Of a stretch of DNA of 27,704 nt, positions 7,420 to 27,135 are shown piece after piece. Positions within the stretch are counted from its first letter, which is position 1, and each line of letters starts with the position of its first letter. The DNA is taken from assembly GCA_030017475.1 (NCBI GenBank), contig JASEIO010000019.1:1-27704 (forward strand), written 5' to 3'. A program made the translations under genes and the position numbers. Below the pieces are notes generated by a model. That model was not told the origin of the DNA. It saw only the letters and a list, made by a program, of their open reading frames with translations, and did no database searches. This stretch comes from a bacterium (GTDB lineage: Bacteria > UBA9089 > JASEIO01).

Positions 7420-8343
7420 TTACACCCCGGGTCTTGGAAGTAGCCCTGCACGTTTTACTATCTCAGGTACCATCTCCTCCCACTCTATCGCCATCAGATG
7501 AATCCCGGAAATCCCATCGATTTCCCTGAGTCTTTGAATGGTTTCTACGCAGATATTAATTCCTTCTTCCTTGCACTTCTCTTTTGGGACACCTTTTAAC
7601 CTATCAATTACCTCGTCAGGGATATCCATGCCTGCTACATGTTCCTTCATATATCTTGCCATCCCCACTGATTTAAGGGGTGTCACACCGGCCAATATAT
7701 ATACCTTCTCATGCAGTCCTTTATCCCTGGCCATATTCATGAAATCTTCGAATCTTTTTAAATTGAATACACTTTGGGTCTGGACAAAATCAACTCCTGC
7801 CTTGATCTTTTTAGCCAATCTTGTCACCCGAAATTCAAATGGCGTAGCAAAAGGATTGATAGCCGCACCGATGAACATCTTTGGTATTCCCTGAATCTTA
7901 TCTCCTCCTAAAACACATCCTTCATCCCGCATTAGCTTCACTGTTTGAATCAATTGGATAGAATCTAAATCAAAAACGTTCTTTGATTGAGGATGATTGC
8001 CAAATGATTGATGATCACCTGTTAGGCACAGAATATTTCTAATCCCTAAGGCATAGGCACCAAAGATGTCTGACTGTATTGCAATCCTATTTCTATCCCG
8101 AGTAACCATTTGCATTATTGGCTCTAAACCTAATTGTCGTAAGATTGCACAAGTCGAGATGCTTGACATCCTTACAATGGATGTCTGATTGTCAGTTACA
8201 TTAACTGCATCAACATTCCCACGGAAAAATTCGGCTTTTTTATGAACTACTTCCGTATCAGCACCTTTTGGAGGACCACATTCCCCTGTAATTACAAATT
8301 CTCCTTTCTCTAATAATCTCTCAAGGTTACTTCCAGATTTCAT
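7420..8343 (-). CDS. metF: methylenetetrahydrofolate reductase, catalytic subunit
   Basis: This 307-residue TIM-barrel flavoenzyme converts 5,10-methylene-THF to 5-methyl-THF, the last folate step of the methyl branch of the Wood-Ljungdahl pathway. Family blocks are ITGECGPPKGAD with the catalytic-type Glu, NVTDNQTSIVRMSS, EPIMQMVTRDRNR, NILCLTGDHQ, FVQTQSVFNLKRFEDF and HLMAIEWEEMVPEIV. The short form without the eukaryotic regulatory domain is the bacterial type that partners with MetV. It overlaps metV by ATGA and has only a weak ribosome site, so it is probably translated by coupling. In acetogens such enzymes associate with Hdr-type modules; here hdrBC and flxABCD are upstream in the same operon. 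Confidence 0.95.
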   Translation of the reverse strand: MKSGSNLERLLEKGEFVITGECGPPKGADTEVVHKKAEFFRGNVDAVNVTDNQTSIVRMSSISTCAILRQLGLEPIMQMVTRDRNRIAIQSDIFGAYALGIRNILCLTGDHQSFGNHPQSKNVFDLDSIQLIQTVKLMRDEGCVLGGDKIQGIPKMFIGAAINPFATPFEFRVTRLAKKIKAGVDFVQTQSVFNLKRFEDFMNMARDKGLHEKVYILAGVTPLKSVGMARYMKEHVAGMDIPDEVIDRLKGVPKEKCKEEGINICVETIQRLREIDGISGIHLMAIEWEEMVPEIVKRAGLLPRPGV

Positions 8344-9008
8344 ATTCTTACATCCTTCCTAATTGTCTTACGAGGACCGCCATCTCTTGCACTTGACCAA
8401 TCCTTTGGAGGGATTATCTCTGATAACTCCTCCAAGCGCCCCAATTCTCTTAGACGATCATAGATCAATTGCCATCCACAATCAATCTCTTTATCTATCT
8501 CACATTTACCATCGCTTGAACCTCCACATGGACCATTAAGTAGACCTTTAGAACATCTTGCAATAGGACATATACCACCAGTTTTATCAAGTATACAATC
8601 TCCGCAGGCTACACATCTTTCAGTCCAAATACCCTGCTCTTCTGGCAGACCAAGGCACATTGTATTTAAGGCTGGATAAACAGGTATGTGGCTAAATCTT
8701 TCCGAAATAGCCTGAACACCAACTCCGCAGCCCATAGAAAGAACCGATTCAGCCTCTTCGATTCTTTCTTTTAATTGATCAATAAACTCCCACTCACATT
8801 GTCGTTCAATAGTCACCTCTTCTGTTTCTATCTCCTTACCATCCAACTTGCAAGCCATCCGAAGAGCTGAGGCAAGGACACCGACCTCCTTTTCTCCACC
8901 AGCCATACAAACTGTAACACAAGTACCGCATCCAACTATTAAAACCTTTCGATAGCCAGCAATCATCGATTTTATTTCCTGAATCGGTTTTTGTTCTGCA
9001 ATAATCAT
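8340..9008 (-). CDS. metV: MetV, iron-sulfur/zinc partner subunit of methylenetetrahydrofolate reductase
   Basis: This 222-residue protein of the MTHFR C-terminal-like family accompanies MetF in acetogens and other anaerobes. It is cysteine-rich: GCGTCVTVC at C27, C30 and C34; C71 and C94; and a C-terminal block C132-x2-C135-x2-C138 with C147, C152, C161, C169 and C177 (VACGDC, GICPIARC, GPCGG). MetV binds clusters and zinc and passes electrons to the MetF flavin. A strong AGGAGG lies 5 bases before the ATG. The next gene upstream ends 82 bases away. The link between MetV and Hdr/Flx-type electron donors is established for Moorella-type complexes; that the same contact exists here is inferred. 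Confidence 0.93.
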   Translation of the reverse strand: MIIAEQKPIQEIKSMIAGYRKVLIVGCGTCVTVCMAGGEKEVGVLASALRMACKLDGKEIETEEVTIERQCEWEFIDQLKERIEEAESVLSMGCGVGVQAISERFSHIPVYPALNTMCLGLPEEQGIWTERCVACGDCILDKTGGICPIARCSKGLLNGPCGGSSDGKCEIDKEIDCGWQLIYDRLRELGRLEELSEIIPPKDWSSARDGGPRKTIRKDVRI

Positions 9009-9090
9009 TTTATCCTCCTCTCTCCTGCATCGCCTTCATTCTCCTTTGCAACTGATGTTGCAATCAGGTATAGATTGGGCAACTGCTGCC

Positions 9091-10137
9091 TCATGCATTT
9101 TTGTACCTTTCAATTTCCAATTCTCTTTTTATCTTTTCTATATCTTCCCTACCAGGAGGGAATGGAAAGTTTCTGATATCAGGACCTGGAAGTGAATTCG
9201 CATAAGGTCGTGTGCAGGCTACCTCCCCATCCCTTCCAGGACATCCGCTTGTCATAAATGGGGTGCCCCTTTCCACTATCCTTAGAAGCTCATCCCTCGG
9301 TAATCCAAAATCTACTATCCTTTCATGGATATCAAATTTGAATCTCTCAGCCCTATCTATTCCTTTATCTATCAAGAATCTCGCAAGCTGTATCCTTCGG
9401 TACTGTCCCATTGGAGGTTGTGGATAATGTGCAAGCCTTGACATTGGCTCGGGAAAAAAGGAAAAAAGATGTGTTTGCCCTCCCATGTCGTAGATCTCCT
9501 GAATGAATTTCACCATCTCCCGCTCAGTCTCATTTAGCCCCACTATAAGATGAACGCCAACCATCCTTTCACCAAAGACTGAAATCCCTTCTTTGAAACA
9601 CGTAAAATACCTCTTCCACTTGTGAGGACCTGAAACACCGCTTCCTCGATATAGATTGAAGAGCTCTGGTGTTGCCGCATCAAAGGCTATCCCTAACATA
9701 TCTGCACCAAGTTCTTTAAAATCTACAATGTCATCCCTGGAAAGAATAGTTGGAGTAACAAGAAGTGAAATTGGTAGATCTACCCTCTCTGCAATATACC
9801 TTGTTACGAATTTTGTATCCTTCACTGCCCTTTTATTTGTTATCATAGATATACACACCCTTTTTATACCATCTCTTTTTTCGATCATCCTTTCGATGAT
9901 ATCTCTTAGGGCATAAGTTGGCCATTCTACTCTTATAAAACTCTTTTTTGAAAACCTCCCTTTTCGTCCAAGGGACAGCCCACAATAGGCACAATTAGCA
10001 CTGCATCCTTCTTCATAAGTGAGAAGCAAGTTGATACAGTAAAGTTTGGCATTTCTGTAGAAAAGTCCACTCTTGAATCCAAGGGTTATCGAAGCCGCAG
10101 TACTCATTCTCAAATAATCAGGGCTCTCTTTCTTCAT
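9091..10137 (-). CDS. lipS2: radical SAM protein, LipS2-like subunit of a two-component lipoyl synthase
   Basis: The protein is a radical SAM enzyme related to biotin synthase (type COG2516). Its cluster motif is CSANCAYC, with cysteines at residues 45, 49 and 52. Further blocks are the conserved GADMLGIAFDAATPE, FSFFPEPMS and a C-terminal MTSGCPGRDG followed by ACTRPYANS, which could hold a second cluster. In the LipS1/LipS2 pathway two such proteins each insert one sulfur into protein-bound octanoate. The identification rests on the pairing with a second radical SAM gene 12 bases upstream, a LipT-like flavoprotein and a GcvH-like lipoyl protein, plus a lipoate ligase elsewhere in the window. 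Which of the pair is LipS1 or LipS2 is my best guess. ATG 10135-10137 was chosen over an adjacent GTG. Confidence 0.68.
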   Translation of the reverse strand: MKKESPDYLRMSTAASITLGFKSGLFYRNAKLYCINLLLTYEEGCSANCAYCGLSLGRKGRFSKKSFIRVEWPTYALRDIIERMIEKRDGIKRVCISMITNKRAVKDTKFVTRYIAERVDLPISLLVTPTILSRDDIVDFKELGADMLGIAFDAATPELFNLYRGSGVSGPHKWKRYFTCFKEGISVFGERMVGVHLIVGLNETEREMVKFIQEIYDMGGQTHLFSFFPEPMSRLAHYPQPPMGQYRRIQLARFLIDKGIDRAERFKFDIHERIVDFGLPRDELLRIVERGTPFMTSGCPGRDGEVACTRPYANSLPGPDIRNFPFPPGREDIEKIKRELEIERYKNA

Positions 10138-10149
10138 CACATTTACACT

Positions 10150-11133
10150 TCACTTGGGTAAATAGTTACAGGTATCCTTGCCCTCTGGTACAGAACAACA
10201 GGTTTTTTGGAAGAATGCCGAAAGACCATACCCTCTGGCTCGTTTTATAGCCTCTTGTGATGGGATAGCAATACTATTCACCCCACAATCAACAGCCAAA
10301 ACATCAATATGCCGGTCGCCTCTTGGACGGGCACAGCCAAGTGAGATATGCGTAAAAGGCATATTAATTCTCCCATAGGCTATTATCCTTGAAACATCCT
10401 CTGCCTTTGGAGGCTCCACCCCTTCCATTGGGGTGGCAACAAGAGGCATAAGGACAACAATGACAAGCCGTGAAATAGAAAAGGGCTTTAGGATATCAAT
10501 TGCCTTGTATTCCCCTCTAATATTTCCATAATCAATCCCAACAACTATATGAGGGATTACTGGTAAAGAGACATATTCAAAGGCCTCGATAGATTTTGTT
10601 ACTTTATCTATAAAGGAATCTATATGACAGACCTTCTTTGCTATTTCATCATCCCCAATGACATCAATCAATGCCTGATCAATGCCTGCTTCCTTAAGGG
10701 CCCATGCTGTTTTCCTCTCTATTATACCACTATGAATGGATAAGAAAAGTCTTGTCTTAGATTTAACCTCTTTTATCGCAGGGATGAACTCCTTCCATGG
10801 CAAACTCCCATTAGCTAAACTTCCACCTGTTATAAGACAGCCAAAGTCTCCTCTTTTATCAAATTCACAACAGAGTGCTACCAACTCCTGAGGGGTTGTA
10901 GCAACCGGCATTTGATCGAGTATCTTTCCTTTACAATGGTCGCACTGAAGGATACATCTCTTCCCTGTAATTGATATTGCCGAGTATCTTCCCCATTCAC
11001 CCTCATAATAAAACATCCCAGGGTGATAGAAGGTAATACGTTTCCCAAAATTCTTCCACGATAATTCTCTTGCCCTATCTATAATAGTCTCTAAATCCAA
11101 TCCAGCACTCTGGAAGTATGAATTCGAGTTCAT
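10150..11133 (-). CDS. lipS1: radical SAM protein, LipS1-like subunit of a two-component lipoyl synthase
   Basis: This biotin-synthase-like radical SAM protein (type COG1856) carries the cluster motif CILQCDHC at residues 60-67 counted from the ATG at 11133. It is preceded by ITFYHPGMFYYEGEWGRY and followed by LGCARPRGDRHIDVLAVDCG and KTCCSVPEGKDTC, whose cysteines may bind an auxiliary sulfur-donating cluster. It is probably one half of the lipoyl synthase that works on the GcvH-like protein two genes upstream. The start is uncertain: ATG 11178 has GGAG 6 bases upstream but overlaps the previous gene by 104 bases, ATG 11133 overlaps by 59, and TTG 11100 by 26. Confidence 0.7.
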   Translation of the reverse strand: MNSNSYFQSAGLDLETIIDRARELSWKNFGKRITFYHPGMFYYEGEWGRYSAISITGKRCILQCDHCKGKILDQMPVATTPQELVALCCEFDKRGDFGCLITGGSLANGSLPWKEFIPAIKEVKSKTRLFLSIHSGIIERKTAWALKEAGIDQALIDVIGDDEIAKKVCHIDSFIDKVTKSIEAFEYVSLPVIPHIVVGIDYGNIRGEYKAIDILKPFSISRLVIVVLMPLVATPMEGVEPPKAEDVSRIIAYGRINMPFTHISLGCARPRGDRHIDVLAVDCGVNSIAIPSQEAIKRARGYGLSAFFQKTCCSVPEGKDTCNYLPK

Positions 11134-12133
11134 CCCAGCGGGATTCAAGAATCCTTCTCCTTCTTCTTGCCCTTTCATGTTCTTCTCCAAAGATGCTCAT
11201 CCATTCCCTCTTATATTCAGACAATGAGGTTCCAAATTTCAGGTGTTTAGCTGCAACCCTTCCGGCAATCTTTCCTCCGATTACTGCTTGACAAATACCC
11301 TGACCAGTTATTGAGTGAGTCATCCCGCAGGCATCCCCTACAAAAAGTATGTTTTTAAAATACATCTCCTGGAGTATCCCGCTTACTGGAATAAGCCCAC
11401 TCGTCTTGGAAAGTATCTGAGACCTTACCTTTCCATCATCCTTTAATCTTTCAACAAACCAGTCAAGAATGCGTCTTAGGAAGACCTTTGAATGAGAATT
11501 TATCTTGACTCCTACTCCGACATTTGCTATATCTCCCTTTGGGAAAAGCCATCCGTAACCGCCGTATATCTTGCGGTTGAAATAGATCTCTGTTTGGTCA
11601 AATCTCTCTGTAAGCGGAAGAGAATATTGAATTGCTGAAACAAACTCCCTATTCCTATTACCTATCTCTCTTCCCACAGTTGATAGTGGTCCATCAGCCG
11701 CTATGATAATCTTTACATCTACCTTATATTGATCTATACCCCTGAGTATTACCCCATCCTCTTCAAATCCAACAAAGGAGGTATTTAGAAGTAGATCTAC
11801 ACCCTCCTCCTTTGCCTTTTCTGCAAGTTCACGATCAAACACATCTCGGTTGAGGATACATCCGTTCGCCCTAATACTAAAACCCTTACCCGATGGTAAG
11901 TAGGTGACCATTTTAGAGACAGAGGATGATATTGCATCGGATGAAATCTCAATCTCTTGAAAGATAGGTCTTGGGACAAATTCTGCGCATTGTACAGGTT
12001 CCCCAACCTTAGATCTTCTCTCAATAAGAATAACCGAAAGGCCACATCTTGCTGCTTCAGCTGCTGCAGTTGAACCGGCTGGTCCTGCACCCACTACAAG
12101 GACATCTGTTTTTATCGTTTCCAATTTGTCCAA
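11075..12133 (-). CDS. lipT: FAD-dependent oxidoreductase of the geranylgeranyl reductase family, LipT-like
   Basis: The 352-residue flavoprotein has an N-terminal FAD Rossmann motif, GAGPAG at residues 15-20, followed by ERRSKVGEPVQCAEFV. A later FAD contact is LFVGDACGMTHSITGQGI. This is the geranylgeranyl-reductase-like fold, but there are no archaeal-lipid genes around it. Instead it lies between a lipoyl carrier gene and a LipS1-like gene, the context in which a flavoprotein named LipT has been described for the LipS1/S2 pathway. A role in delivering electrons to the radical SAM pair is inferred from that context. The start appears to be TTG (12131-12133), 14 bases after the upstream stop; the ribosome site is weak. 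Confidence 0.7.
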   Translation of the reverse strand: MDKLETIKTDVLVVGAGPAGSTAAAEAARCGLSVILIERRSKVGEPVQCAEFVPRPIFQEIEISSDAISSSVSKMVTYLPSGKGFSIRANGCILNRDVFDRELAEKAKEEGVDLLLNTSFVGFEEDGVILRGIDQYKVDVKIIIAADGPLSTVGREIGNRNREFVSAIQYSLPLTERFDQTEIYFNRKIYGGYGWLFPKGDIANVGVGVKINSHSKVFLRRILDWFVERLKDDGKVRSQILSKTSGLIPVSGILQEMYFKNILFVGDACGMTHSITGQGICQAVIGGKIAGRVAAKHLKFGTSLSEYKREWMSIFGEEHERARRRRRILESRWDELEFILPECWIGFRDYYR

Positions 12134-12147
12134 TATCCGGAAGTTTC

Positions 12148-12585
12148 TTAACCCTTCTTTCCCTCTTCAGCCTTTTTTATCTCTCCCTTAAGCCACTCAA
12201 CCATCTTTTCGCCCTGGAGTAAATTGGTTAAATCCTCCTCTAAATTCGAAGGGTTAATAACCATTATCCATCCTTCACCATAAGGATCTTTATTCATTAT
12301 CGAACTATCACCTTCAAGCTTCTCATTAACAGAGGTTACCTCTCCACTTACTGGAGACACCAACTTTCCAATCCATTTCGCTGTCTGAACCTTCCCGCAG
12401 GTCTCTCCCTGTTCAATTTCATCCCCTTCAAAGGGTAAATCAACTGAAACCACATCTCCTGCTGCCTTTAGATAGAAATCATTCATACCAACTCGAACTG
12501 AACCATCGTCCTCAATCCTTGCCCATGCATGTTCAGAATGATAATACAAATCATCCGGCATATCATATCCTTCAATAATACTCAT
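12148..12585 (-). CDS. GcvH-like lipoate-carrying protein (LbpA type)
   Basis: This 145-residue protein has the H-protein hammerhead fold. LYYHSEHAWARI precedes the core block GKVQTAKWIGKL, and SPVSGEV follows. The predicted lipoylated lysine is K70, since the distance to PVSGEV matches GcvH. The surrounding residues (TAKWIGKL rather than the usual ESVKA) and the absence of gcvT or gcvP nearby point to a lipoate-binding carrier like the LbpA proteins of sulfur-oxidising Hdr systems, not to glycine cleavage. A strong AAAGGAGGG lies 5 bases before the ATG. It sits between hdrB and the lipoyl-assembly genes, so it probably carries a dithiol/disulfide arm for HdrBC. A conventional GcvH role remains possible. 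Confidence 0.85.
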   Translation of the reverse strand: MSIIEGYDMPDDLYYHSEHAWARIEDDGSVRVGMNDFYLKAAGDVVSVDLPFEGDEIEQGETCGKVQTAKWIGKLVSPVSGEVTSVNEKLEGDSSIMNKDPYGEGWIMVINPSNLEEDLTNLLQGEKMVEWLKGEIKKAEEGKKG

Positions 12586-12613
12586 CTTTCCCTCCTTTTA
12601 ATTATAATAAATC

Positions 12614-13492
12614 CTATTCAATACCGATCTTTGATAGTAACTCTTTTGTTTTTACTTTATTAAACTGAAGACCAAGATCCCTTTTTGGATCCATGCCCAT
12701 AGCTAATCCTATTAATTGTGTATAGTAGAGTACTGGTAAGTTGTATTCCTTTCCAGCCTGCAAAGAGATCCCCTTTTGATTATCATCATACATTACAGCA
12801 CAGAAAGGACAGATAAGAGTCATACAATCGGCACTCTCTTTAGAGATATGATCTATCTTCTCTCCGGCCATAGTCAAAGCAATTCGCTCATCCATAGCTA
12901 AGATACCACCACCACAGCACTGTTTCTTATTCTCATAGTCAACCGGTGTTGCAGATATAGCAGAGATCAGTTCATCAAGAGTCTTTGGATCTTCTGGGTC
13001 ATCAAAATGATCATAGATCTCTGATGGTTTCAAGTAATGGCAGCCATAATGAGGGGCAACCCGTAAGCCTGAAATATCTTTCTTTACCGAATTCTTTATC
13101 CTATCAAGACCAATATCCTCATAAAGAATTCGTAATATATGTTTTACCTTGACTCCACCTTTATATTCCTTACCAATAGATTTTAACTTCTCATTCACTT
13201 TTGCTCTTTCATCCTCATGTTCCAATTCTCTTGATACCTCAGTTAAAACTCCAGTACAGGCTGAACAAACTGTACAGATATTTAACCCTGATGATCCTGC
13301 AATTGCTAAAGTTCTTGCAGCCATTAAGAGAGTAGTCTCTCTATTTACAGACTTTATAGGAAATCCACAGCATCCAAAATCCTCTAAATCTACCACTCCT
13401 ATCCCAAAGGCCTCTGCAACACGTCGAGTAGATAATTCATAATTCCTTGCCCTTGCTGGAACAGTACAACCCAAAAATAGTGCATATCTCAT
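12614..13492 (-). CDS. hdrB: heterodisulfide reductase-like subunit B (two CCG domains)
   Basis: HdrB is the disulfide-reducing subunit of heterodisulfide reductases and binds two noncubane [4Fe-4S] clusters. Both CCG domains (PF02754) are complete. Domain 1 has C9, C41-C42, C76 and C79. Domain 2 has C151, C192-C193, C228 and C231. The spacings fit the family pattern, so the active site looks intact. The protein has 292 residues from the ATG at 13490-13492, chosen because GAGGAGG lies 9 bases upstream; an earlier in-frame start at 13516 has no site. A bacterium is not expected to have the CoM-S-S-CoB substrate, so another disulfide is implied. The next gene downstream encodes a lipoyl protein, making lipoamide the leading candidate. 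Confidence 0.9.
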   Translation of the reverse strand: MRYALFLGCTVPARARNYELSTRRVAEAFGIGVVDLEDFGCCGFPIKSVNRETTLLMAARTLAIAGSSGLNICTVCSACTGVLTEVSRELEHEDERAKVNEKLKSIGKEYKGGVKVKHILRILYEDIGLDRIKNSVKKDISGLRVAPHYGCHYLKPSEIYDHFDDPEDPKTLDELISAISATPVDYENKKQCCGGGILAMDERIALTMAGEKIDHISKESADCMTLICPFCAVMYDDNQKGISLQAGKEYNLPVLYYTQLIGLAMGMDPKRDLGLQFNKVKTKELLSKIGIE

Positions 13493-13565
13493 TGTGATTT
13501 GCCTCCTCTTTGACAAGTGTCAGATTTTCCTGTCCTATGTTTTCTTGAGATCTGCCTTCTGCAAT

Positions 13566-14057
13566 CTATAATTTATCAAGACCTGTTAACTTTATTATTC
13601 CACTGATCTCTTCTCGTTGCATTTGGATTCTTGGAAGTCCAATCTTCTCCCTCTTCTTATTATCAAATTCATCTATCTCATAAAGCCTGCCAAAATCACT
13701 TAATAGTTTTATCTGTGTTTTCATAACTGAAGGAACATACCCTGCCTTTACTGCCATATTTTTTAATACATTCATTACCTCTATCAACTTTACATCCTGA
13801 GGGCACCTTTCATAACAGGTATAACAGGTAGAACACAACCAGATAAAATCGCTCGATAATACTTGCTCCTTCATTCCCAATAAAGCCATTCGGATTATCC
13901 TTCTCGGATTATATCTCTCATCAATCTCCCTAACTGGACAACCAGCAGAACATGTACCGCAGGAAAAACAGGCTTTAATGTTCTCCCCACCAGGTTGAGC
14001 TGCTATCTCATACTTAAACCGTGGATCAAGTTCCGAAACATTTATTACATCTGTCAA
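13566..14057 (-). CDS. hdrC: heterodisulfide reductase-like subunit C (two [4Fe-4S] ferredoxin)
   Basis: This 163-residue soluble ferredoxin-like subunit relays electrons to HdrB. Two complete cluster motifs are seen: C30, C33, C36, C40 (CFSCGTCSAGCP) and C75, C78, C81, C85 (CSTCYTCYERCP). The start is a TTG (14055-14057), which is supported by a strong AAAGGAGG about 8 bases upstream; no ATG in this frame fits better. It lies directly upstream of hdrB, the usual pairing. The HdrA flavoprotein that normally hands electrons to HdrC is not encoded in the window, so the electron source is probably the Flx proteins encoded just upstream, or an HdrA from another locus. Confidence 0.9.
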   Translation of the reverse strand: MTDVINVSELDPRFKYEIAAQPGGENIKACFSCGTCSAGCPVREIDERYNPRRIIRMALLGMKEQVLSSDFIWLCSTCYTCYERCPQDVKLIEVMNVLKNMAVKAGYVPSVMKTQIKLLSDFGRLYEIDEFDNKKREKIGLPRIQMQREEISGIIKLTGLDKL

Positions 14058-14111
14058 TTTAACACCCTCCTTTTAGCTTATACTACTATCGTTCGCTTAT
14101 AAAATCATCTG

Positions 14112-14954
14112 CTAATATTCATCAGGCATCTCATTAAGCTGAGCTAATGAAAATATAGGTCCATCCTTACATACATATCTATTTCCAATATTACACCTTC
14201 CACATTTTCCAATTCCACACTTCATTCTCATCTCTAAGGAATTTATTATTCGGTCCGGAGGAAATCCAAGTTCAGTTAAAACTGGAATGGTAAATTTTAT
14301 CATAATTTGGGGGCCACAAACTAAACAGATCGAATTTTCAGAGGATGGTGCAATCTCTTTAGTCACTGCTGGAACAAATCCTTCACGAGCAGGCCATGGA
14401 TCACCATTCAATTTATCAACAGTCACATACATATCTATGTCAGATCGTTCCTCCCATTCCTTCAATTCGGGCTTATAGATCAGCTCCCCTGCATTCCTTG
14501 CACCATAGATGCATGTAATTTTACCGAATCTCTTTCGATTCTCTCCGTGTAACATATAAACAATAGCCGATCTTAAAGTTGTAAAGGCAAATCCCCCACC
14601 AATCACTACAATATCTTTTCCTTCCATCAAATGGAATGGATACCAATTTCCATAAGGACCTCTAATACCTATAACTTGTCCTTCTTCCATATTATGAAGC
14701 GCGGTCGTTACAACCCCCATCTTTTTAACAGTAAATTTTATAAATCCCTTCTCTGTAGGAGATGAGGCAATACCAATAGGGGACTCTCCTGCACCATATA
14801 CAGAAAGCTCTGCAAATTGACCTGGGGTATATCTAAAGCACTCCTCATCTTCTTTGTTTAAAAAAACTAACTCAAAGGTTTTTAGGTCCCTTGTATCATT
14901 TTCAATTATAATCCTCCTGATTCTAACAGGATATGGTTTATATGGATTTTGCAC
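14112..14954 (-). CDS. flxA: FlxA-like FAD/NAD(P)-binding oxidoreductase with [2Fe-2S] site
   Basis: The 280-residue protein belongs to the ferredoxin-NADP reductase/PyrK family that includes hydrogenase gamma and anaerobic sulfite reductase B subunits. An FAD-binding barrel (TPGQFAELSVYGAGESPIG, residues 44-62) is followed by the NAD(P) domain (RGPYGNW, VVIGGGFAFTTLR, CGPQIM). A C-terminal [2Fe-2S] site has C246, C251, C254 and C262 (CGIGKCGRC). It would oxidise NAD(P)H, or reduce NAD(P)+, and exchange electrons with the Fe-S subunits around it. In the FlxABCD-HdrABC complexes of anaerobes, FlxA is the NADH-binding subunit. The start is a GTG (14952-14954) with a G-rich ribosome site. Confidence 0.85.
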   Translation of the reverse strand: MQNPYKPYPVRIRRIIIENDTRDLKTFELVFLNKEDEECFRYTPGQFAELSVYGAGESPIGIASSPTEKGFIKFTVKKMGVVTTALHNMEEGQVIGIRGPYGNWYPFHLMEGKDIVVIGGGFAFTTLRSAIVYMLHGENRKRFGKITCIYGARNAGELIYKPELKEWEERSDIDMYVTVDKLNGDPWPAREGFVPAVTKEIAPSSENSICLVCGPQIMIKFTIPVLTELGFPPDRIINSLEMRMKCGIGKCGRCNIGNRYVCKDGPIFSLAQLNEMPDEY

Positions 14955-15002
14955 CTAAAACCCCCCACACGATGAATTCTATAGACTAATCCTTATCCGT
15001 GT

Positions 15003-16016
15003 TCATCCATGGTTTATATTGTTGATTACCTTCCGGAGATCCATATTAACTGGGCAGTTTATGATGCATCTACCACAGCCAACACATGCTGTATCCCCCC
15101 AATAACTCACAAAGTAGTTAAATTTATGCATTATTCTTTGCCTCATCCTTTCCTTTCCACTCTCTCTTGGATTATGACCTGATGTATGTAATGTGAAAAG
15201 AGGAAACATACAAGAATCCCAATTTCTCCGCCTTACACCTTTATCGTTTACGGTTTCATCTTCTATATCAAAACAGTGGCAAGTCGGACACAGGTATGTA
15301 CAGATAGCACAACCTATACACTTCTCATGAAGATCTGACCAGAAAGGATCTTCAAACATACCATCAAGTTTCTCTTTCAAACCAGAGATTTCCACCTTTG
15401 TCCTGATTCTCTCTTTGGCATCTTCCGAGACCTTTTCTTTCATATCCAAGTCGGCCTTTTCGGCATCATTGAATCCATCATACTCACTTATTATACCTTC
15501 TCCTTTCGAGGTCAAAATTTGAAAAACATACTTATTGCCTATATCAGTAATGAACAGATCTGCACCATCGGATGATCCTGGATCAATTCCAAGCGATGTA
15601 CAAAAGCATGTTGTTTGGGGCTCTCTACATCCCATACCAATCAAAATGATACTATCTCGCTTCGTAATAAAGTAAGGATCTCTAAAATCATGATTATCAA
15701 AAACCTTATTGAGCAAAGAGAAGCCTTTTATATCACAAGGCCTTATTCCAAATATCACCCTTTTCCCATAATCAAAAGGTCCTTCCTCTATCAACCTCCC
15801 TTTTTCATACCGAAGCATCACCTCTGACTGAGGAAAAAGGAATCTCTTGGGTGAATCTTTTGAATTTCTATAACCCAGGTAGACTTCATTTCCTGACTTA
15901 ACCTCATCAAACGAAATAAAATCCTTTTTCTTCACAGGGGCAAAGACATAATATTTCCCAATTAATGTATCAATAAACGTAACCACCTTTTCTCTACTAA
16001 TCACCTTTTCTTCCAC
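15003..16016 (-). CDS. flxB: FlxB-like two-[4Fe-4S] subunit (AsrA/hydrogenase-beta family)
   Basis: The 337-residue protein resembles anaerobic sulfite reductase subunit A and the beta subunit of sulfhydrogenases. The N-terminal half carries GIRPCDIKGFSLL and GMGCREPQTTCFC. The C-terminal half holds two ferredoxin motifs: C233, C236, C239, C243 and C311, C314, C317, C321. It probably passes electrons between FlxA and FlxC or FlxD. No siroheme sulfite reductase (AsrC) and no hydrogenase large subunit lies next to it, so the Flx assignment is better than Asr or hydrogenase. The GTG start (16014-16016) has AGGGG 7 bases upstream. The next gene upstream ends 15 bases away. Confidence 0.82.
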   Translation of the reverse strand: MEEKVISREKVVTFIDTLIGKYYVFAPVKKKDFISFDEVKSGNEVYLGYRNSKDSPKRFLFPQSEVMLRYEKGRLIEEGPFDYGKRVIFGIRPCDIKGFSLLNKVFDNHDFRDPYFITKRDSIILIGMGCREPQTTCFCTSLGIDPGSSDGADLFITDIGNKYVFQILTSKGEGIISEYDGFNDAEKADLDMKEKVSEDAKERIRTKVEISGLKEKLDGMFEDPFWSDLHEKCIGCAICTYLCPTCHCFDIEDETVNDKGVRRRNWDSCMFPLFTLHTSGHNPRESGKERMRQRIMHKFNYFVSYWGDTACVGCGRCIINCPVNMDLRKVINNINHG

Positions 16017-16031
16017 TACAATACCCCTTAA

Positions 16032-16985
16032 TTATTTGATAAATTCCTGAGGGTCGTCCTCCTTATACGTTGCTAATGGTGGTACAGTTTCAAGATCAAT
16101 ACCTGCCTTGTAATTGTATAGCTCTACTACATCCTTCTCAACCTTCTTGGTAAGTTTTCTCAAATCAATTCCCATAGGACAGGCTCGCTCACATGCACCA
16201 CAGTCAACACATCTACCAGCGGTATGGAATACTCGGATTATATGAAATATCATCCTGTCTGATTCGTCAATGGACCTTCCAAACCATTGTGGCCTGCTCT
16301 GATCGATGAAGCACTCCTTGCAGTAACATAGAGGACATACGTTTCTACAGGCATAACATCTGATGCACGATTCTATTTCCCGAGTAAAGTACGCCCATCT
16401 TTCATCCGGTGATTTCTTCTCAAATTCTCTTATCTCCCGAAATTCATCAACATCCTCTCTCTCTTTTACCTCATCTCCTACAATGACATCATAAAGGGAT
16501 GGAGTTTTTTGTGTACAAGTTTTACAGGAATCATAAAGAAAATCACTTATATTAAAGGATCCTTCAAACCGCTCCCCTTTAACCTTAATCTGACCATTGA
16601 CTTCTATTGCCTCTAAAATCTCTGCTTCATCAAACCTCTCTTTAATACCTTTTCTATCAACCATACCGGTACATGGAACTCCAATTATAAAAACCATATC
16701 CCTTTCTATTTGCCTCTCCTTAATAGCATTTATGATTGAACGGGCATCACATCCTTTCGCTACAATACCTACTTTCCCTTTTATTTTAAGCCTCAATAAA
16801 TAATTAGCCAGATTGTTCTCGCAAGTAGCATTCCATATCAATCTCTCTACGGCATCTATAGATTTTATAAAGGCAGGAGTTGTCCGAAGGGGCAAAGACC
16901 CCTCCTCAAATCCAATTATGAGTTCCACCTTTTTTTCTTCAAGCGCCTTCCGAGCTTCTTCCCTAATCCTTTCCACTATCTCCAT
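16032..16985 (-). CDS. flxC: FlxC-like two-[4Fe-4S] subunit (FrhB/FdhB-related)
   Basis: The 317-residue protein has an N-terminal region like the coenzyme F420 hydrogenase/dehydrogenase beta family (IVAKGCDARSI, IIGVPCTGMVD) and a CKTC pair near residue 154. Two ferredoxin motifs follow: C207, C210, C213, C217 and C259, C262, C265, C269. Between them lies an extra cysteine group, PLCYCKECF. Similar proteins are found with MvhD/FlxD and Hdr genes in anaerobes. It is probably an electron-relay subunit; a flavin or F420 site is not evident. AAGGAG lies 6 bases before the ATG. It sits 10 bases from flxD, consistent with co-translation and complex formation. Confidence 0.8.
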   Translation of the reverse strand: MEIVERIREEARKALEEKKVELIIGFEEGSLPLRTTPAFIKSIDAVERLIWNATCENNLANYLLRLKIKGKVGIVAKGCDARSIINAIKERQIERDMVFIIGVPCTGMVDRKGIKERFDEAEILEAIEVNGQIKVKGERFEGSFNISDFLYDSCKTCTQKTPSLYDVIVGDEVKEREDVDEFREIREFEKKSPDERWAYFTREIESCIRCYACRNVCPLCYCKECFIDQSRPQWFGRSIDESDRMIFHIIRVFHTAGRCVDCGACERACPMGIDLRKLTKKVEKDVVELYNYKAGIDLETVPPLATYKEDDPQEFIK

Positions 16986-16995
16986 TTTTTACTCC

Positions 16996-17457
16996 TTAGA
17001 GTTTTCTGTAGTTAAATCTCTTTATCAGCCTCTTTGCAGGACCAAGTGCCTTTACACTTTCCGTTACCTCTTTTATGACAGTAGCAAATTTCTCTCCCTC
17101 AGCAGCTGAAACCCAGGAGAAATTTACCCTTCCCTCCTCTATCCCTATGTATTCTAAAATATTCTTTAAAATAGTGAATCTACGTCTTGCAAAATAATTT
17201 CCAGTTAAGTAATGACAATCTCCTGGATGACAACCAGATACAAGTACTCCATCTGCACCTGCTTGTAAGGATTTTATAATAAAGAATGGATCTACCCTAC
17301 CTGAACATGGAACCCTTATAACCCTAACATTTGGAGGGTATTGTATGCGGGAAATCCCAGCAAGATCTGCCCCTGCATACGAACACCAATTACATAAAAA
17401 TGCAATTATCTTCGGTTCCCAGTTCTCAATTTTGGAATCCACTTCATCTAAATTCAT
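16996..17457 (-). CDS. flxD: FlxD/MvhD-like iron-sulfur subunit
   Basis: The 153-residue protein belongs to the MvhD/FlpD family that connects a hydrogenase, formate dehydrogenase or Flx module to HdrA. Conserved cysteines are C22 and C25 (LCNWCSYAGAD), C51 (VPCSGRVD) and C76 and C81 (GCHPGDCHYLTGN), which bind a [2Fe-2S] cluster. AGGAG lies 6 bases before the ATG. It is the first gene of the large leftward operon, about 30 bases from the predicted transcription start. MvhD normally docks on HdrA, which is missing here, so either HdrA comes from elsewhere or FlxD contacts HdrC directly. Confidence 0.92.
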   Translation of the reverse strand: MNLDEVDSKIENWEPKIIAFLCNWCSYAGADLAGISRIQYPPNVRVIRVPCSGRVDPFFIIKSLQAGADGVLVSGCHPGDCHYLTGNYFARRRFTILKNILEYIGIEEGRVNFSWVSAAEGEKFATVIKEVTESVKALGPAKRLIKRFNYRKL

Positions 17458-17486: not shown

Positions 17487-17502
17487 GTGTTAATTCTAAC
17501 AC
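17487..17502. promoter_or_regulatory. palindromic candidate operator over the -10 box
   Basis: The sequence GTGTTA-ATTC-TAACAC is a perfect 6+6 inverted repeat centred on the -10 box of the flx operon promoter. A protein bound here would block RNA polymerase. The regulator is unknown, and the repeat does not match a motif I can name with confidence. Confidence 0.5.
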
Positions 17503-17521
17503 GATATTTTATTCTTGTCAA
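17493..17521 (-). promoter_or_regulatory. strong sigma70-type promoter of the flx-hdr-lip-met operon
   Basis: On the minus strand a perfect TTGACA (17521-17516) is followed after 17 bases by TAGAAT (17498-17493), preceded by TG as an extended -10 (TGtTAGAAT). Transcription should start near 17486, about 30 bases before flxD. The -35 box overlaps the stop codon of the DUF3343 gene. All genes down to 6662 face the same way with small gaps or overlaps, so one long transcript is likely. Confidence 0.78.
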
Positions 17522-25540: not shown

Positions 25541-27115
25541 TTAAAATTTTAAGTCATTTGCATTTTTAGCAAGATGAATTACCTTCTTTAGTAAATCGAG
25601 TTTTAGCTCTGTCTTATCTGAAAATTTCCCTCGATATGCATCAACTTGTTTTCCAAGGTCATAACAGGTTTCGGATTCAATATCGATGAGTATTGCTGGA
25701 AGTCGAGACCTTTCAAAATCCTCTTTATGCTTAACATAGAATGCCTCACAGCAAGACCCGATATAGGAGGAAACGCCATTATTCCGAAACTTTGTTAAGA
25801 TTTCCATTAGATCCTCAAAGCTATTTATAGTGATTGGCGAAAGTCCGTTAATCTCTGCAAATCTATATGCATCTCCTACACTACACTCTCCACATTCAAT
25901 GCATTCTCTTCTATACCTAAATTCACAACTTGGCTTTTTTGCACAATAGGGAAGAAGTAGATATTTAACACCTTTTCTAATTATATCTTCGAATCTACCA
26001 TTTACTGTAAAGATACTGTTTGCATCAGGAAAGGATATTCCATAATTTGTATAATCTAACTTGATTAAGGCTTCATCAATGGCTTTTGCAAAATCATCAG
26101 GTAAAATAGCAGGAATCTGTATATCATTTTTCCTGAAGAACTCTAAAGTCTTCCTTTTAACCAACTCTCTATCTGCTGCAATGTTCTTTAAGCTTGCCTC
26201 TAAATCATAGATTGTCCTTTTAGGTGAACAGAAAAAATCTCCTGTTATGAGTGTACTTTGAATAATCCTTCTTTTTAGATTGACCATTAGATTAGTTCTT
26301 ATAAGTCCACCCCCTGTTTTATGAACGGATTTTAAAACTTGCTGTTCACTTATAGGCGCTCGTATTTTATAAATCCAATCATCTGATTTGAACCTCGAAA
26401 GTTTCTTCTTGTATAGCTCTTCTTCATATCCTGTCAGATTTCCCAAGATTAGTGAAACTCCAAATACATTTTCAAAACCTTCCTTTATAGCATCCTTAAT
26501 CTCTGATAGGTCTGGAAGATAGTTCAGTTCTCTCTTTATCCATGTAACCCTATCCTTTACCTCCTCGATCTCCTTATCCTTCAATTTCTCGGTTGGAATC
26601 CTTAGAGATTTTATCATAGTTACAACATCAAAGTCAAGGAGTAAGGTGCCTTGAAAAAGGAACGCATCACCTTCTTCTACCCCACCAGTACCAGATATCT
26701 TACGTCCCGAAATCTCTATATCATTCCTTCCCCGAAAACATGCCTTTAATCTAAACTTCCTCAGGGCATAGATTATCGCATTACATATCTTTCTAAATAG
26801 AGACTCAAAAGTTAGTTCCAAATCCTCTTTCTTTGCTATAAGCTCCCAGCCAAGCTGATGCCTATCAAAGAATATCGCCCCACCACCAGTTATCCTTCTA
26901 TTTATACTAATACCGTTCTCCTTACAGAACTCCTCCCTTACTTCCTGCTCTACTGACTGGTGATAACCAATCAAAACTGCGGGAGGAAAGAACTGCAAAA
27001 AACGGACAGTATTTGGAATCACTCCTTTACATCTTGCAAAAAGGATCACTTCATCCAATGCTATATTCTCATCCGCTTCCCTCACCCCTGTATCAAGTAG
27101 TCGCCATTTATTCAC
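25541..27115 (-). CDS. lipoate-protein ligase (LplA-LplB) fused to a DUF116 domain
   Basis: This three-part protein of about 524 residues (numbering below is from an upstream GTG at 27127) should attach lipoate or octanoate to carrier proteins. The catalytic LplA part (about 8-245) has RRITGGGAIFF (77-87) and ISGRKISGTG with the substrate-binding K143. The accessory LplB part (about 250-345) has GGGLIRTNL and ITGDFF. The C-terminal DUF116 domain (about 385-528) has many cysteines: C395, C401, C409, C412, C415, C459, C460 and C488, likely Fe-S ligands. The GTG at 27113-27115 is preferred because AGAGG lies about 10 bases upstream and the N-terminus then reads NKWRLLDTG as in the family. The probable target is the GcvH-like protein at 12148. 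Confidence 0.85.
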   Translation of the reverse strand: MNKWRLLDTGVREADENIALDEVILFARCKGVIPNTVRFLQFFPPAVLIGYHQSVEQEVREEFCKENGISINRRITGGGAIFFDRHQLGWELIAKKEDLELTFESLFRKICNAIIYALRKFRLKACFRGRNDIEISGRKISGTGGVEEGDAFLFQGTLLLDFDVVTMIKSLRIPTEKLKDKEIEEVKDRVTWIKRELNYLPDLSEIKDAIKEGFENVFGVSLILGNLTGYEEELYKKKLSRFKSDDWIYKIRAPISEQQVLKSVHKTGGGLIRTNLMVNLKRRIIQSTLITGDFFCSPKRTIYDLEASLKNIAADRELVKRKTLEFFRKNDIQIPAILPDDFAKAIDEALIKLDYTNYGISFPDANSIFTVNGRFEDIIRKGVKYLLLPYCAKKPSCEFRYRRECIECGECSVGDAYRFAEINGLSPITINSFEDLMEILTKFRNNGVSSYIGSCCEAFYVKHKEDFERSRLPAILIDIESETCYDLGKQVDAYRGKFSDKTELKLDLLKKVIHLAKNANDLKF

Positions 27116-27135
27116 TGTAAAAACCACCTCTAAAT

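Follow-up and report, generated by a model that had tools for sequence, protein, structure and literature searches.

A bacterial operon joining Flx and Hdr genes with a lipoyl carrier protein and its assembly genes, and a candidate disulfide for HdrB

Known Hdr systems and the operon in the window

In the HdrABC-MvhADG complex of methanogens the substrate is the heterodisulfide of coenzymes M and B (CoM-S-S-CoB), and for the FlxABCD-HdrABC complex of Desulfovibrio vulgaris and other anaerobes the disulfide partner is otherwise thought to be DsrC or is unknown. Recent archaeal genome papers call the disulfide of HdrABC-type complexes outside methanogens unknown or unidentified (PMC9723716, PMC11291895). 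Here, a bacterial contig of 27,704 nucleotides (JASEIO010000019.1 of assembly GCA_030017475.1) was analysed, which is referred to as the window and is the whole of contig G000:C22 in a draft genome of 1.64 Mb, 111 contigs and 98.5% completeness. It contains 12 genes on the minus strand, running from 17457 to 7420 in the order flxD-flxC-flxB-flxA-hdrC-hdrB-gcvH-like-lipT-lipS1-lipS2-metV-metF with intergenic gaps of -116 to +82 bp. An earlier note on this DNA had read these 12 packed same-strand genes and the lipoylation site Lys70 from the letters, and both were borne out by the gene coordinates and family matches (Table 1). As judged from sequence, the lipoyl carrier of this operon is a strong candidate for the disulfide used by Flx-Hdr reductases outside methane-producing archaea.

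The operon was compared with the closest described systems. It shares with FlxABCD-HdrABC the FlxA-D, HdrB and HdrC components, their domain types and the arrangement in a single operon, and differs from it in that HdrA is encoded elsewhere and in the addition of the lipoyl carrier, the assembly enzymes and MetVF. With HdrABC-MvhADG it has in common an HdrB carrying two noncubane clusters, an HdrC and an MvhD-type subunit, whereas no coenzyme of the CoM-S-S-CoB kind is implied here. MetV-MetF genes adjoin Hdr and MvhD-type genes as in Moorella-type acetogens, from which the window differs in the added lipoyl carrier and in that no carbon monoxide dehydrogenase/acetyl-CoA synthase (CODH/ACS) was found in its genome.

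The only lipoyl partner of an Hdr-like complex established by experiment is LbpA of the sHdr system, which is matured by Lpl-LipS1/S2-LipT (PMC6067878, PMC10332631) and has conserved cysteines near its N- and C-termini, some archaeal LbpAs excepted (PMC6067878). LipS1/S2 are not restricted to sulfur oxidisers, and LipT is an FAD oxidoreductase thought to supply electrons to them (PMC10332631). Furthermore, lipoyl-GcvH was already proposed as an alternative disulfide for HdrB in Culexarchaeia (2022), where the archaeal, hydrogenase-linked Ehe cluster holds NiFe-hydrogenase, HdrBC, HdrA2B2C2, SdhA, CdhA and GcvH genes; lipoate-assembly genes, Flx, a GcvH phylogeny, a sequence motif and an acceptor census do not appear in the portions of that description available to us (PMC9723716). 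The earlier note knew of no described system with this combination, which holds for the exact gene set within the literature searched and does not hold for the idea (PMC9723716; PMC6067878). A search for Flx, lipoate and GlcD/HdrD combined, from which most subscription journals lay outside, found nothing. The present analysis adds a bacterial form of Flx-Hdr that includes the assembly genes, a census with a sole acceptor, a clade with a signature, and recurrent partners among enzymes with CCG domains.

Both the window and LbpA/sHdr have a GcvH-like lipoyl protein adjoining Hdr-type genes and the same maturation set, and the possibility of a sulfur-oxidation or sulfur-transfer system of the sHdr-LbpA type, with sulfur substrates carried on lipoate, was weighed on that ground. 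The two LbpA cysteines near the termini are absent, the sole cysteine of the GcvH-like protein being C63, no DsrE match was obtained in the window genome, and the NAD(P)H module FlxABCD is present instead. The sHdr system has paralogues B1/B2 and C1/C2, whereas a CCG search returned one HdrB genome-wide; HdrC copies outside the window were not covered by that search. In two relatives, L122 (8166-9307) and L126 (8533-9682), DsrE-family genes separate HdrB from GcvH within a Flx-Hdr cluster, which keeps sulfur chemistry open for other lineages. For the window itself, we regard this alternative as improbable, and the link to sulfur oxidation raised in the earlier note was thus not upheld. A plasmid search for LbpA relatives gave mostly ordinary GcvH and one protein with LbpA-like cysteines, a GcvH-like protein on an Acidithiobacillus ferrooxidans plasmid (L148, 9001-12704). 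It has cysteines in its N- and C-terminal parts as well as the motif KWAGG, and it is encoded among hemerythrins and near an Hdr-related Fe-S protein.

The GcvH-like protein and its lipoate assembly set

The draft genome was searched for lipoyl acceptors and for the enzymes that commonly use them. One protein genome-wide matched GCV_H, the carrier of the operon, and the two Biotin_lipoyl matches are biotin carboxyl carrier proteins with the biotin motif EAMK. The carrier scored 129 bits with NF002270 (above the cut-off) and 112 bits with TIGR00527 (just below the cut-off). In the alignment its K70 falls on the lipoyl lysine. The structure of the carrier was predicted with confidence (predicted local distance difference test, pLDDT, 93.8), K70 lying in the turn of the beta-hairpin, and the best PDB matches of this model are H-proteins with a template modelling (TM) score of ~0.85, including the lipoylated E. 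coli H-protein. In family searches of the 98.5%-complete draft, no match above cut-off was obtained for GcvP (GDC-P), GcvT (GCV_T), LipA or the E2 component of 2-oxoacid dehydrogenases, and lipoamide dehydrogenase was not found, its best match reaching 59 bits against a cut-off of 409. The lipoyl assembly components LipS1, LipS2, LipT and Lpl(AB) are all four present, in a genome that lacks the sHdr signature. Thus, the full assembly set for lipoate has only one recognised acceptor to serve, and because that acceptor is the operon GcvH, glycine cleavage and 2-oxoacid dehydrogenases are excluded; a lipoyl-relay role was likewise rejected on the census.

The fourth assembly gene, an Lpl(AB) fused to DUF116, lies outside the operon, 8 kb away and within the window. 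It is the probable ligase for the GcvH-like protein of the operon. Its relatives adjoin GcvH, LipS1 and LipS2 in other genomes, and as several genomes have close Lpl-DUF116 relatives next to GcvH and LipS genes, DUF116 may act in lipoate assembly.

In 84,980 species genomes, relatives of the GcvH-like protein were sought by N-terminal peptide patterns, none of which contained the K[WY]xG motif described below; this gave 78 loci, 77 of them usable. None of the 77 has a gcvP or gcvT neighbour, whereas such neighbours are nearby in 12 of the other GcvH loci fetched for comparison. In the IQ-TREE phylogeny, the window protein was placed in a clade of 37 rows (support 99/93) that contains none of the 13 gcvP/gcvT-linked GcvHs, all of which fell in a separate clade of 17 rows (100/99). 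The inner forks of the tree are soft, since the alignment kept only 146 columns, and several Hdr-linked archaeal and WOR-3 proteins were placed outside the 37-row clade. The two groups were also distinguished by the residues following the lipoyl lysine. The K[WY]xG motif, in which the lysine is followed by Trp or Tyr and, at +3, by Gly, was found in each of the 25 Hdr/Flx/CCG-linked and each of the 42 Lpl/LipS-linked proteins, and K-Ala or K-Thr in all 13 gcvP/gcvT-linked GcvHs; the window protein carries KWxGK. Lipoyl proteins linked to Hdr/CCG genes can be told apart by this signature from the H proteins of glycine cleavage, although both are scored as GcvH by curated models.

Another explanation is that the protein acts in glycine cleavage after all, as an ordinary H protein or a moonlighting one, or relays lipoate to other enzymes, and stands beside Hdr genes by chance. 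The shared fold and the scores with GcvH models speak for it. The genome, with no match for GcvP, GcvT, lipoamide dehydrogenase or E2, already contradicts this explanation, and the position outside the gcvP/gcvT-linked clade, the neighbours of the 77 relatives and the Hdr association across phyla speak against it as well, so that we give it hardly any credence. The clustering with true glycine-cleavage H proteins beside gcvP and gcvT, which the earlier note had named as the observation that would tell against its idea, was not seen. These results together support the view that the GcvH-like protein is not a glycine-cleavage protein.

HdrB and the proposed electron transfer

The HdrB of the operon aligns end to end with the methanogen HdrB 5odc_B (E 9e-75). 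It keeps all ten cysteines that bind the two noncubane [4Fe-4S] clusters in the solved methanogen structure (here C17, C49, C50, C84 and C87 as well as C159, C200, C201, C236 and C239). The earlier note had suggested protein-bound lipoamide as the disulfide of HdrB, and with the genome census, the tree and the recurrent HdrBC/Flx neighbours, it now stands as the best candidate at the level of sequence. Protein-bound lipoamide is therefore, in our judgement, the probable dithiol/disulfide substrate of HdrBC, and the GcvH-like protein would be a dedicated redox carrier. The case is unusually clean, as a single recognised lipoyl acceptor, an assembly pathway dedicated to it and an intact HdrB in the operon meet in a genome that lacks the enzymes by which lipoamide is normally used or re-oxidised, and the question is directly testable with a handful of expressible proteins.

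From the observed gene content, motifs, phylogeny and presence or absence of genes, we infer the following scheme, in which every step beyond gene content is conditional. LipT, LipS1 and LipS2 together with Lpl would put lipoamide on Lys70, and the noncubane clusters of HdrB would interconvert the lipoyl disulfide and the dihydrolipoyl form on the GcvH-like protein. HdrC, and an HdrA supplied in trans from contig C52, would join HdrB to FlxD-C-B-A, which would exchange electrons with NAD(P)H, and HdrA is expected to couple ferredoxin through flavin-based bifurcation or confurcation. The lipoyl carrier may give electrons to, or take them from, other CCG-domain enzymes, here the TfrB/GlcF-like protein next to the GlcD-type oxidase on contig C40, and MetVF may draw electrons from the same Flx-Hdr complex.

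Contig C52 carries an HdrA-like array (L044, G000:C52, 996-7856) made up of HdrA proteins of 427 and 566 aa, an MvhD of 277 aa whose C-terminus is extended, and an HdrA-HdrA fusion of 1005 aa. HdrB and HdrC are missing from it. An array of this di-HdrA/MvhD/HdrA type directly adjoins GcvH in L060 and is near GcvH in L124 and L130, which supports HdrA acting in trans. In the CCG search of the genome, the only protein besides HdrB was a TfrB/GlcF-like protein on C40. It belongs to a trio (L054, G000:C40, 7782-11174) with a GlcD-type FAD oxidase and a 261-aa protein (c34) of no known family, for which no Pfam match was obtained even at E 5 and whose predicted model (pLDDT 32) is worthless. Genes of formate dehydrogenase type adjoin this trio. 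The trio is colinear with genes adjoining GcvH in L086 and L087, and its best matches are the trio directly beside GcvH in L086 (46%, 55% and 41% identity for GlcD, TfrB-like and c34, respectively). In thiol:fumarate reductase, CoM-SH/CoB-SH are handled by the TfrB subunit, and thus a dithiol carrier fits a TfrB-like partner.

The textbook potentials are about -290 mV for lipoamide, -320 mV for NAD, -170 to -190 mV for malate and lactate, and near -450 mV for ferredoxin. On these values, confurcation, in which a 2-hydroxy acid and reduced ferredoxin yield two NADH, would be the likelier direction; the confurcating lactate dehydrogenase follows the same thermodynamic logic.

Several points weigh against lipoamide as the substrate of HdrBC. 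Lipoamide at about -290 mV is too low for bifurcation from NADH in its usual direction, which leaves the direction of flow and the coupling uncertain. The operon has no HdrA gene. The absences of lipoamide-using enzymes are called against a draft of 98.5% completeness in 111 contigs. The relatives were chosen by similarity to the window protein and many of their contigs are short, so the counts given below do not represent a random sample. Moreover, no Hdr genes lie within 10 kb of GcvH in 40 of the 42 deltaproteobacterial loci, and in all eight loci of Altiarchaeal type GcvH is apart from Hdr/Flx and mostly stands alone.

Gene neighbourhoods across genomes and features of the window

The co-occurrence search proposed in the earlier note was made on the 77 relatives. 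Hdr, Flx or CCG Fe-S genes were found within 10 kb of GcvH in 22 of the 35 non-deltaproteobacterial loci from bacterial and archaeal phyla, including Thermoplasmata and other euryarchaea, WOR-3, TA06, Stahlbacteria, Sumerlaeota, Aerophobetes, CSSED10-310 and others. The archaeal locus L060, with FlxDCBA-Lpl-LipT-LipS1-LipS2-GcvH, is a near gene-for-gene repeat of the window. Because the grouping recurs in unrelated genomes, it is beyond chance. A Fisher test at 1.5 kb (14/35 versus 0/12) gave p = 0.009, a value not to be leaned on since the sample is biased to relatives and its members are not independent. The separation of GcvH/LipS from Hdr genes, which the earlier note had listed as evidence against it, applies in part, as in 40 of the 42 deltaproteobacterial loci GcvH, usually accompanied by Lpl and LipS2, is apart from Hdr genes within 10 kb. 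The association of GcvH with Hdr is thus recurrent but lineage-dependent. The deltaproteobacterial loci (L065-L123) have a conserved neighbourhood of hisD, GcvH, Lpl and LipS2 in Desulfobacteraceae and relatives, with GcvH mostly near these three genes.

GlcD- and/or TfrB/GlcF-like genes occur in the GcvH neighbourhood of 17 loci. Six loci have a LarAH6-type malate racemase gene, and some encode fumarase or malic enzyme. These neighbours, and the matching trio on C40, point to oxidation of 2-hydroxy acids such as malate, lactate or glycolate, in which GlcD and the TfrB-like CCG protein would reduce lipoyl-GcvH and Hdr-Flx would re-oxidise the carrier, confurcating with ferredoxin to NADH. Such a role would be a special case of lipoamide serving HdrBC, with the substrate class named. 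The trio of the window genome is on a separate contig, and the substrate specificity of a GlcD-type oxidase is not readable from sequence; we therefore hold this sub-case to be a tentative one, with the odds somewhat against it.

Methylene-tetrahydrofolate (methylene-THF) reduction as the main job was also considered, in which Flx-HdrA would bifurcate from NADH with MetVF as the high-potential branch and lipoyl-GcvH as a relay or disulfide branch. The association of MetVF, HdrABC and MvhD genes is known in acetogens, metV-metF end the operon, and the CSSED10-310 locus L083 independently groups HdrC-HdrB-HdrA-MetV-MetF-LarA-GcvH-GlcD-CCG. Besides the window, however, L083 is the only locus with MetVF near GcvH (1 of 77 relatives). 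MetV has no thiol/disulfide domain of CCG type, and CdhC/AcsB gave no match in the genome, in a search with no acetogen among the control genomes, so that no acetogenic carbonyl branch was found. The methylene-THF link made by the earlier note is thus weak; such a link may exist but is not the conserved core, and we consider it unlikely to be the main job. The genome has two genes of the methylenetetrahydrofolate reductase (MTHFR) family, metF being one; the other (L136, G000:C74, 775-2301) encodes a longer product of 508 aa.

Taking the bacterial and archaeal loci together, anaerobes may quite generally use lipoamide on the KWxGK GcvH-like clade as a mobile disulfide coenzyme, the protein-borne equivalent of CoM-SH/CoB-SH. 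Electron-bifurcating Flx-HdrABC and varied CCG-domain oxidoreductases (GlcD/TfrB-like 2-hydroxyacid dehydrogenases and hydrogenase-linked Hdr), perhaps also MetVF, would share it, and it would serve neither glycine cleavage nor 2-oxoacid dehydrogenases nor sulfur oxidation. We put this wider proposal forward with some reserve, at a little under even chances.

The features of the window are collected in Table 1. The annotated LipS1 start overlaps LipT (the -116 bp gap), which suggests that the true start is more downstream. Among promoter-like sites on the minus strand in this region, the one upstream of flxD is the strongest; it is suggestive only, as such sites are no commoner there than in shuffles.

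Table 1. Coordinates and identities of the operon genes and associated features in the window
Feature	Position	Strand	Identity and supporting matches
promoter-like site	17493..17521	-	TTGACA-17-TAGAAT, extended -10, 11/12 consensus match, 36 bp before flxD
flxD	16996..17457	-	MvhD/FlpD-type [2Fe-2S] electron-entry subunit for HdrA; PF02662 1.1e-56; 2e-53 to MvhD chains of solved HdrABC complexes
flxC	16032..16985	-	FrhB_FdhB_C domain (FrhB_C) and Fer4, two [4Fe-4S] sites; resembles F420 formate dehydrogenase beta subunit of solved Hdr complexes
flxB	15003..16016	-	Fe-S protein of AsrA / sulfhydrogenase-beta (HydB) type; NF040829, TIGR02910, PF17179
flxA	14112..14954	-	FAD- and NAD(P)-binding subunit of AsrB / sulfhydrogenase-gamma type; PF00175, PF00970, PF10418, NF006220
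hdrC	13566..14057	-	TIGR03290 9e-36; two CxxCxxCxxxC [4Fe-4S] motifs, Cys 30/33/36/40 and 75/78/81/85
hdrB	12614..13516	-	two CCG domains; TIGR03288 3e-85
GcvH-like lipoyl carrier	12148..12585	-	PF01597 2e-35; lipoyl lysine K70 in QTAKWIGK motif
lipT	11075..12133	-	geranylgeranyl-reductase-type FAD oxidoreductase; TIGR02032 9e-64
lipS1	10150..11190	-	radical S-adenosylmethionine (SAM) lipoyl synthase subunit; NF053742 6e-64, 216 bits against cut-off 230 (slightly under)
lipS2	9091..10140	-	radical SAM lipoyl synthase subunit; NF053743 4e-66, 224 bits against cut-off 270 (slightly under)
metV	8340..9008	-	Fe-S subunit of MetVF-type methylene-THF reductase; PF12225 3e-38
metF	7420..8343	-	methylene-THF reductase catalytic subunit; PF02219 4e-42
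lipoate-protein ligase Lpl(AB) fused to DUF116	25541..27127	-	PF21948 7e-47, PF10437, PF01976

Some further arrangements were noticed among the loci fetched. In L050 (478-6674) and L049, a GcvH with the motif KYIGP adjoins a 690-aa HdrD-like protein that has CCG domains and an apparent membrane region, and the neighbourhood also holds a 190-aa CCG protein, LipS1 and Lpl-DUF116; a quinone-linked version of the same lipoyl-carrier idea is possible there. Two genomes of the same phylum as the window encode GcvH-like domains without the lipoyl lysine. In L046 (4733-5371), a receiver-like (response-regulator) region is fused to such a domain and the fusion gene adjoins HdrC-HdrB-HdrA-FlxD, and in L048 (7768-10157) the GcvH-like gene lies between a homologue of PheRS-type class II tRNA synthetase and MoaC.

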